This document shows, in pieces, positions 26,534 through 27,621 of a DNA stretch of 64,000 nucleotides (positions within the stretch are counted from its first letter, which is position 1; each line of letters begins with the position of its first letter). Below the pieces are notes generated by a model. That model made no database searches. It was not told the origin of the DNA and saw only the letters and a list, made by a program, of their open reading frames with translations. A program made the translations under genes and the position numbers. Source of the stretch: Aequorivita vladivostokensis (GTDB lineage Bacteria > Bacteroidota > Bacteroidia > Flavobacteriales > Flavobacteriaceae); assembly GCF_000952855.1 (NCBI RefSeq), contig NZ_JSVU01000011.1:1-64000 (forward strand). The letters are read 5' to 3'.

Positions 26534-27142
26534 TCAGCCCTTTCTTTCATTAAGATACATCAGGCTTCCGTAAATTATATGGAAAAAGCCGAAGCCCAAG
26601 AGCCAAAACCAAAAACCATAACCGGGTAGCGCTGCACAGATAAGCCCTATGATTATTTGCGCATAGCCCAAATATTTTACGTTGCCGATTGTGTATTTTG
26701 AAGCGTTCACAAGTGCCAATCCATAAAAAATGAGCATCAGCGAAGCCGTGAGGCCATAATGCTGGCTGTTTAATTTTATGATTATGTAAATTCCTCCGGT
26801 TACTAACGGAATTAAAAAGTTGACCAATAAACGTTTGGTGGTGGCGTCCCAAATTTTCTCGTTGTTGTTTTTTGCCCTGCGGGTGGTGAGTAGGTAAGCC
26901 GTTACCACGCTCAGCACGAGCACGGAGGCTAAGAGAGCGAGCAACAATTTAAAATTCCAACTGTGTAGCTTCAAAAACTCCCCGGGCTCTGGAAAGAGAT
27001 ATGCATAAGCAATCGCTGCTCCTATGATGGCGTAGATACCTGCAAAAATTCCGGAAAGGCCGCTCAGTGAAATAAAACGCGACGAGCGGTCCATCAAGTT
27101 TTTGATTTCGCTGATGTCTTTTAGATAATCCTTTTTACTCAT
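26534..27142 (-). CDS. Multi-pass membrane protein, first gene of the creD regulatory operon
   Basis: 202 residues with a cytosolic N-terminus (KKDYLKDISEIKNLMDRSS) and about six membrane segments, several Gly-rich. No known domain was recognised. Its start lies 4 bp from operator copy 1. The tight junction with the winged-helix gene shows cotranscription; the membrane protein may sense the signal to which the regulator responds (inference). Confidence 0.7.
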   Translation of the reverse strand: MSKKDYLKDISEIKNLMDRSSRFISLSGLSGIFAGIYAIIGAAIAYAYLFPEPGEFLKLHSWNFKLLLALLASVLVLSVVTAYLLTTRRAKNNNEKIWDATTKRLLVNFLIPLVTGGIYIIIKLNSQHYGLTASLMLIFYGLALVNASKYTIGNVKYLGYAQIIIGLICAALPGYGFWFWLLGFGFFHIIYGSLMYLNERKG

Positions 27143-27145
27143 AAT

Positions 27146-27167
27146 AAAGTACTTTGAAAAACAAAGT
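27146..27167 (-). promoter_or_regulatory. Operator-like palindrome, copy 1, at the creD-operon promoter
   Basis: AAAGT-ACTTTG-AAAAA-CAAAGT on the plus strand, with the palindrome core at 27151-27167. Its arm overlaps a TTACTTTG -7-like box on the minus strand and lies just before the start codon at 27142, so a bound regulator would block initiation. Identical half-sites and 5-bp spacing occur at 26188-26209. Confidence 0.65.
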
Positions 27168-27266
27168 AAATGTAAAAAGTTTTATCCGCCAAATTATTTC
27201 CAAAGAAAATATTTAGTTCCAAAATTTCTGGGTTTCAAAAAAGTAGGAAATTACACACAGGAAAAA

Positions 27267-27282
27267 AGGGGGAAATCCCCCT
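27267..27282 (+). promoter_or_regulatory. GGGGG-AAAT-CCCCC palindrome upstream of sRNA-like unit 1
   Basis: The 16-bp sequence AGGGGGAAATCCCCCT forms 6-bp arms around AAAT. A degenerate copy (AGGGTTTTTCCT, 27291-27302) lies 9 bp further on, directly before TTG at 27304-27306. Unit 2 has AGGGGGAAATCCCTA at 27460-27474 directly before its own TTG. This looks like an activator site upstream of the -33 region. Confidence 0.5.
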
Positions 27283-27339
27283 ATAAATTCAGGGTTTTTC
27301 CTCTTGACTGGCATTGTCCTTCTTCGCATCTTTACACTA

Positions 27340-27415
27340 TCAAATTAATTGGGGAGTTAATTTTTGACAAGAGGTTATAAGCTGTTTCTTTTTAGAAGCA
27401 GCTTTTCCTTTTTTA
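27340..27415 (+). ncRNA. Candidate small RNA 1 (about 75 nt)
   Basis: Downstream of TTG-N20-CATCTTTA promoter-like elements, the unit contains TTAATTGGGGAGTT (27345-27358), then GAGGTTA, then an intrinsic terminator (AAGCTGTTTCT / AGAAGCAGCTT with a TTTT loop, followed by T-rich sequence, 27379-27415). No credible reading frame is present. The same boxes in the same order recur in unit 2. Family unknown to me. Confidence 0.5.
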
Positions 27416-27459
27416 AGTTTAATGTCAAATTGTGAAAACAGGAAAAATCCTGTAAAAAA

Positions 27460-27474
27460 AGGGGGAAATCCCTA
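27460..27474 (+). promoter_or_regulatory. Imperfect GGGGGAAATCCC site upstream of sRNA-like unit 2
   Basis: AGGGGGAAATCCCTA immediately precedes TTGATT (27475), which lies about 22 bp upstream of GATATTTG. A second inverted repeat, ACAGGA-AAAA-TCCTGT, lies just upstream at 27438-27453. Confidence 0.5.
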
Positions 27475-27508
27475 TTGATTTACAAGAGATTATGTGCGAT
27501 ATTTGGAT

Positions 27509-27579
27509 ACTTATTTAATTGGGGAGTTTTATAAGTATGAGGTTAAGGACTGTGCCCCCAATGGTCACAGTCCTTTTTT
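27509..27579 (+). ncRNA. Candidate small RNA 2 (about 70 nt)
   Basis: It shares TTAATTGGGGAGTT (27515-27528) and GAGGTTA (27539-27545) with unit 1, in the same order and with similar spacing. It ends in a perfect 10-bp terminator hairpin (AAGGACTGTG / CACAGTCCTT, then six T). A 14-codon ATG frame runs through the terminator but has no counterpart in unit 1, so an RNA product is preferred. Confidence 0.5.
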
Positions 27580-27621
27580 AAAAATTAACGATGCTTATTT
27601 TATAGAGTTTTGTTATTAGCC

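Follow-up and report, generated by a model that had tools for sequence, protein, structure and literature searches.

Tandem predicted small RNAs in Flavobacteriaceae with a loop matching a motif at the start of curli messages

Curli are sticky amyloid fibers, and OmrA/OmrB and other E. coli small RNAs (sRNAs) act on csgD, the mRNA of the curli regulator. The array reported here resembles OmrA/OmrB in consisting of predicted sibling sRNAs with a bearing on curli, its candidate targets being curlin mRNAs and not csgD. To our knowledge, most of what is understood about sRNA function in Bacteroidota comes from the polysaccharide loci of Bacteroides; among the matches listed in the open-licence literature, neither an sRNA family of these genera nor sRNA control of curli in the phylum appeared in titles or abstract starts. 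The portions of the FopS report cited here describe OmrA/OmrB as a biofilm-related sibling pair and FopS of Bacteroides thetaiotaomicron as paralogous sRNAs in 14 copies, classed as intergenic, antisense, and 3′-UTR (PMC11697453). As described there, FopS is like the array in coming from the same phylum and in comprising multicopy sRNAs of ~65-70 nt with a shared 5′ seed and a Rho-independent terminator, and its targets are outer-membrane and surface functions, as are the candidate curlin targets here (PMC11697453). FopS differs in its single-stranded 5′ seed, which pairs near susC-like start codons according to the same excerpts (PMC11697453), whereas the array would present a stem-loop seed to a candidate site ~180-280 nt upstream; both units described below have, in place of a FopS-type single-stranded seed, a predicted 5′ stem-loop whose outer arms pair with their own partner. 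The array is also tandem at one locus with paired operators, and it is set apart from FopS by descriptions, not sequences.

The LhrC1-5 sRNAs of Listeria monocytogenes, in the cited part of their description, share with the array a multicopy organization, one regulator (LisR) on upstream elements, target-contacting loops, and an adhesin target (PMC4132741). They carry C-rich UCCC loops directed at G-rich sites beside the start codon (same excerpt, PMC4132741), whereas the array has a G-rich loop and a C-rich, far-upstream site. Rfp18 of Flavobacterium psychrophilum, compared by description only, is likewise a conserved trans-acting sRNA, from the same bacterial family, with predicted pairing to mRNAs of surface or secreted proteins; it differs in pairing via its third stem-loop with metalloprotease mRNAs, as far as the excerpted account goes (PMC9723704).

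The window, a stretch of 64,000 nucleotides from Aequorivita vladivostokensis, contains two tandem units at 27267-27580, each combining a promoter and a terminator with a predicted RNA of ~70 nt. The array lies between a divergent creD-side operon, identified by domain matches to CreD (PF06123) and an HTH_34 protein, and kdsA, whose name follows the original prediction. In both units the two palindromes are followed by the TTG and, after 20-21 bp, by the -7-like box; next come the stem-loop containing TTAATTGGGGAGTT, the GAGGTTA box, and the terminator. As sequence features, the array thus comprises several independent units that share a core but have separate promoters and terminators, as multicopy sibling sRNAs do. 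The features are as follows.

27267 to 27282, no strand: unit 1 distal palindrome (operator A), in the paired-site layout seen in 85 of 95 family units
27290 to 27303, no strand: unit 1 proximal palindrome (operator B), CAGGGTTTTTCCTC, adjoining the TTG, with 22 bp between its centre and that of operator A
27304 to 27306, plus strand: unit 1 -33 TTG, from the sequence
27328 to 27335, plus strand: unit 1 -7-like box, CATCTTTA, after a 21-bp spacer from the TTG; consensus TAnnTTTG
27340 to 27415, plus strand: unit 1 predicted small RNA, start placed from the -7 box and end from the T tail
27345 to 27360, plus strand: unit 1 core stem-loop, TTAATTGGGGAGTTAA, loop GGGG, from the fold and the family alignment
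27345 to 27358, plus strand: unit 1 TTAATTGGGGAGTT, from the sequence
27371 to 27377, plus strand: unit 1 GAGGTTA, a box limited to part of Aequorivita
27379 to 27415, plus strand: unit 1 intrinsic terminator, stem 27379-27404 and then a T tail; the stem covaries across 16 units
27438 to 27453, no strand: unit 2 distal palindrome, ACAGGAAAAATCCTGT, from the sequence and the family layout
27461 to 27472, no strand: unit 2 proximal palindrome, GGGGGAAATCCC, with 21 bp between its centre and that of its distal partner
27475 to 27477, plus strand: unit 2 -33 TTG, from the sequence
27498 to 27505, plus strand: unit 2 -7 box, GATATTTG, 20 bp after the TTG
27510 to 27580, plus strand: unit 2 predicted small RNA, from the fold and the covariance model
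27515 to 27528, plus strand: unit 2 core, TTAATTGGGGAGTT, loop GGGG, from the sequence and the fold
27539 to 27545, plus strand: unit 2 GAGGTTA, from the sequence
27545 to 27580, plus strand: unit 2 intrinsic terminator, in which a stem with a bulge (27545-27575) precedes the T tail

The original prediction had described two units with the named boxes in the same order; all of these elements were located, and the tandem order recurs at the same locus in relatives. This recurrence, together with the confinement of the 14-mer TTAATTGGGGAGTT to the array (two sites in the 3.27-Mb genome, both in the array, with none on the other strand or in the reversed control), indicated that the array is more than a chance arrangement. 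TAnnTTTG is the -7 consensus reported for Flavobacterium in the cited part of the Rfp18 study (PMC9723704), and it is fitted loosely by the unit 1 box and better by that of unit 2. When compared with shuffled sequences, folding gave a z of -4.3 for unit 1 and -1.7 for unit 2, so that the unit 2 fold is unremarkable taken alone; the consensus terminator scan that found the unit 1 terminator did not include that of unit 2, the stem of which is bulged. No tandem repeat was reported at the locus by TRF. The small open reading frames (ORFs) across the two units are unrelated to each other, and an ORF of at least 20 aa occurs in just 6 of the 95 family units, in keeping with the earlier view that the units have no reading frame in common; a shared short peptide was set aside on these grounds. 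The divergent membrane-protein/HTH_34 operon next to the array begins with AAAGTACTTTG..CAAAGT repeats (27142-27190) that are kept across genera and represent an operator type other than the sRNA palindromes.

The curated families of Rfam release 15 (4227 models, gathering-score cut-off) gave no family over the window units, nor any at the six array loci scanned in relatives, consistent with the initial failure to recognize a described family. Sub-threshold rows at E<=1 (e.g., rli38; E 0.0014, 37.5 of 49 bits) span the terminators of unit 2 and of the kdsA side; FopS was not among the rows of the Rfam scans, a result that counts only if FopS is one of the 4227 models. The sole Rfam family found elsewhere in the window was a tmRNA gene (RF00023; 17409-17822, minus strand).

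Recurrence in related genomes was traced at several levels of stringency. A spaced two-box pattern matched 9 of 59 genomes, all from the same genus, and a covariance model built from 16 units and searched in 28 Aequorivita genomes matched 26 of them at E<=1.2e-4; the remaining two (G003 and G007, 89% and 69% complete) reached E values of 0.056 and 0.065 only, and the G026 match was weak, with operators absent by eye (locus L041). Clusters of two to three matches with E<1e-3 at one locus were present in 19 of these 28 genomes, and a relative within the genus (G018) has an array nearly identical to that of the source genome. Clear arrays were also found in other genera in a sample of 149 Flavobacteriaceae genomes; relatives often carry two to four tandem copies, up to four units being present in G112. 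Inspection of 19 weaker loci by eye left three family-like (G138, G062, and G122), one doubtful, and 15 resembling ordinary terminators. A scan requiring ATCTTT ahead of the core returned 37 contigs, all titled as members of Flavobacteriaceae or Flavobacteriales, with genera including Aequorivita, Ulvibacter, Altibacter, Planktosalinus, Luteirhabdus, Cochleicola, and Thermobacterium. The tandem copies anticipated across the Flavobacteriaceae therefore recur in other genera but not at other loci: the source genome gave no further copy at E<=0.1 with the covariance model, and the copies of relatives cluster in one array. Judged from sequence, the array very probably represents a new tandem sibling sRNA family of Flavobacteriaceae.

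The family set was assembled by keeping 104 of 121 matches (17 weak ones, mostly opposite-strand or partial, were dropped), which reduced to 98 distinct sequences and to 95 units with at least 12 of the 16 core letters. What these units have in common at the RNA level is a 5′ stem-loop with the core UUAAUUGGGGAGUUAA, presenting UUGGGGAG. Conservation of the core was 93-100% in columns 1-14 and 82% and 79% in the last two, percentages that are inflated because rows were chosen by similarity. In the outer arms of the stem, the own partner beat swapped partners in 69 of 95 units (P 9e-8, kinship ignored). As originally proposed, the terminator stems vary while boxes are kept: two-sided changes were seen in 6 of 11 pairs across the 16 units, so that stems change letters yet stay paired, and the core is nearly fixed. 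GAGGTTA, also put forward as a shared box, is present in both window units but is not general; it occurs in 13 of 95 units and, among the units seen, in part of Aequorivita only, and it was ruled out as a general family box. Some Altibacter-type units have the -7-like box ~60 nt upstream of a core that is still kept. Altibacter-type arrays (L078, L095, L100, and L081/L082) include one unit in which ~50 additional nt separate the -7-like box from the core stem-loop, and its predicted RNA would therefore have a longer 5′ end.

The palindrome first noted ahead of the TTG is present in both units, but mostly as one of a pair and not singly; the members missed at first are those at 27290-27303 (unit 1) and 27438-27453 (unit 2). 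Two palindromes were found with a lenient score in 85 of 95 units, compared with a mean of 31.4 in shuffles, which here and in the leader tests move blocks of two letters and are cruder than true dinucleotide shuffling. Their spacing was 21-23 bp in 76 of the 85 two-site units, control spacings being flat, and TTG begins 1 nt past the proximal site in 72 of the 85. This layout suggests an activator bound twice on one helix face, at roughly -44 and -66 relative to the inferred start, and a single activator is likely to read the paired sites of both units. The stricter pattern of two sites plus TTG matched 13 of 28 genus genomes (controls, 0), with no match in the source genome. A search for the single palindrome in the source genome gave 24 matches compared with 41 in the reversed control, a count that is uninformative because it falls below the control; a single-site operator was set aside, as the conserved feature is the pair and single sites are rarer than in the control. 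The proposal of two co-regulated sRNAs under one GGGGGAAATCCCCC-reading factor hence fits the recurrence across genera, the nearly fixed stem-loop, the covarying terminators, and the rigid promoter, with the amendments that the operator is mostly paired and that the RNAs are predictions.

The same single-palindrome search led to a palindrome pair in the source genome ahead of a gene encoding curlin repeats (PF07012), which is followed by a small gene and then by CsgE, CsgF, and CsgG. Two adjoining ORFs beside this curli region look by eye like an insertion-sequence transposase pair (L168 19157-20001, L169 2-445). Strict site pairs, 22-23 bp apart, were present in 2 of 13 leaders in each of two Aequorivita curlin sets, one strict site only in 6/13 and 3/13, respectively, and none in the remainder. 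Twelve aligned Aequorivita curlin leaders, 252-328 nt in length, carry a C-rich motif (CUCCUCAA in 10, CUCCCCAA in G021, and CUCCUCAU in one; CUCCYCAA in 11 of 12) some 24-36 nt past the assumed start and ~180-280 nt upstream of the start codon, with two or three UCCC(C) motifs farther along; the majority of these motifs, though not all, are predicted to be unpaired (0.26-1.0). CUCCUCAA and the loop UUGGGGAG share an 8-nt complementarity with one G-U. Among the loops of the 95 units, 79 are UUGGGGAG, six CUGGGGAG, with one end pair lost, five UUGAGGAG, and five others; because UUGAGGAG replaces the G-U with A-U against CUCCUCAA, the commonest change within the G-run keeps pairing, which is suggestive but falls short of proof. 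The leader of a second curlin gene (655 aa) holds CUCCCCAA, the exact complement of the loop, inside a small hairpin loop that is kept in its four closest orthologues (L170-L173), the hairpin fold being modest (z -1.5). Little consensus structure was found for the whole curlin leader in the Aequorivita alignment. By duplex energy among 72 leaders (window and curli region), the 655-aa curlin leader ranked 2nd and the main curlin leader 11th, row 1 being the antisense of the array itself. The two or three additional motifs of the twelve aligned leaders (L145-L156) are conserved as UAUCCC(C)U; for the most part predicted to be unpaired, they match the sRNA loop over ~5 nt only and could bind a protein.

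Across the 149 family genomes sampled, CsgF was found in 31 and the core 15-mer in 16, two of which (G082 and G119) were dropped since the matches look coding by eye. csgF accompanied 12 of the 14 remaining core-bearing genomes and 19 of 135 others (Fisher 6e-8, kinship ignored); without the two omissions, the counts were 13/16 and 18/133 (P 4.7e-8). Outside the genus, csgF was present in 29 genomes; leaders were compared in 20 of these, chosen by hand so that 10 carry the exact core and 10 lack it, and the curlin genes for the hexamer test were hand-picked. CTCCYC preceded a curlin gene in 9/10 sRNA-positive and 1/10 sRNA-negative genomes (P 0.001, kinship ignored), and CTCCTC was the top of all 4096 hexamers in splitting the curlin leaders (8/10 vs 0/10), ahead of TCCTCA and TATAAT (each 7/10 vs 0/10). 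This ranking of all hexamers was used because CTCCTC is identical when read backwards, making a reversed-motif control uninformative; the P values of these sRNA-curli tests are weakened by the relatedness of the sRNA-positive genomes. Exceptions comprised G062, with the sRNA but no CTCCYC before curlin, G193, with CTCCCC but no core, and G091 and G138 (82% complete), with the core but no csgF match. The best duplex site coincided with CTCCTC in only some sRNA-positive leaders and was often another C-rich stretch in other genera, and the sRNA-negative leader of G193 had a duplex score equal to the best. Curlin promoters outside Aequorivita carry by eye a TACGT..ACGTA-like palindrome in place of the paired operator (L230-L235, L243, and L245), to which another regulator of curli may bind; support for one activator acting on both the sRNAs and curli is therefore confined to Aequorivita.

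Taken together, these comparisons make a curlin mRNA a moderately probable target of the loop. The sibling sRNAs might instead pair with other mRNAs through the GGGGAG loop, the curlin motif being a clade-conserved leader element with another role. This alternative, which we regard as unlikely yet deserving of attention, would account for the sRNA in G091 in the absence of csgF, for other leaders in the small tested set whose scores are as good as that of the main curlin leader, and for the 85 sites of the 8-mer CTCCCCAA in the source genome (51 for the reversed word); by these counts the 8-mer alone is not specific, and genome-wide exact-seed counting was set aside as target evidence. It accords poorly with the first place of CTCCTC among hexamers ranked by sRNA presence, the co-occurrence of the core with csgF, and the exact complement in a conserved loop of the second curlin leader. 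Less probable still, the sibling RNAs could titrate an RNA-binding protein that recognizes the stem-loop, in the manner of CsrB/RsmZ. A protein site would explain why stem and loop letters are both nearly fixed (93-100% over columns 1-14 in the 95 units, in part an effect of how rows were selected), which a loop seed alone does not, and tandem copies would raise the dosage; nevertheless, a candidate protein is lacking, and the loop is the complement, not a copy, of the curlin motif. A CsrA-titrating RNA (CsrB/RsmX type) in particular was excluded because CsrA was absent from 28/28 Aequorivita genomes, the same search being positive in the control genomes of E. coli, B. subtilis, and T. maritima. 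It is very improbable that the units are not RNAs but paired DNA elements (operators together with terminators active in both directions) or a mobile repeat that multiplied in the gap and is decaying, for although the unit 1 palindrome has a minus-strand terminator-like score in the terminator scan, the order of promoter, stem-loop, and terminator is kept in several genera, terminator stems covary and outer arms fit their own partners, and the source genome is without a copy elsewhere, unlike the case of a mobile repeat.

Pairing of sibling sRNAs with curlin leaders is thus the reading that we favor. From the features read directly in the DNA, namely the units, paired palindromes, conserved stem-loop, complementarity, and curli co-occurrence, we infer transcription, an activator, pairing in the cell, and a direction of effect. 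Each unit would yield a trans-acting sRNA of ~70 nt from its own promoter, ending at its intrinsic terminator. One activator would switch on both promoters by binding two GGG-N4-CCC-like palindromes two helical turns apart beside the -33 TTG, with operator centres near -44 and -66. The 5′ stem-loop with the core UUAAUUGGGGAGUUAA would then present UUGGGGAG for pairing with CUCCUCAA/CUCCCCAA in the long curlin leaders. As some Aequorivita curlin promoters carry the same operator pair, the activator, the sRNAs, and curli may form a feed-forward loop in this genus. The effect would be expected to arise via mRNA decay or leader remodelling and not by direct ribosome exclusion, given the long distance between the site and the start codon; damping of curli seems the more plausible outcome, with activation the less favored one. 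Since curli messages carry near their start a motif that the loop matches, the array may control biofilm building. The whole explanation, joining a shared activator, sibling sRNAs, and loop-seeded pairing with curlin leaders, has in our judgment somewhat better than an even chance of being correct. We consider more tentatively, and at rather less than even chance, a clade-wide Flavobacteriaceae curli circuit in which an activator on paired GGG-N4-CCC operators drives tandem sRNAs whose G-tetraloops dock, partly by kissing, on repeated C-rich leader motifs, inverting the Gram-positive polarity of C-rich loop and G-rich target without Shine-Dalgarno-led initiation. If true, sRNA pairing would take place far upstream of the start codon in bacteria not reliant on Shine-Dalgarno sequences. 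The compact array, with its loop seed, operator pair, and named candidate target, makes the sRNA function and the activator testable in culturable marine strains.

Paired operators were also observed elsewhere. Outside the arrays, the same paired operator precedes a family of ~162-aa proteins at the three such loci read, each in a different Aequorivita relative (L112, L115, and L117; around locus base 1500), which are candidate further regulon members; neither of the two proteins tested matched a Pfam family at the curated cut-off, and downstream lies a small gene with a coiled-coil-like product. Within the source genome, paired GGG..CCC-like sites occur upstream of a 318-aa secreted-looking protein (L121, G000:C1:129320) and near a 229-aa lipoprotein-like gene (L131, G000:C3:412038).
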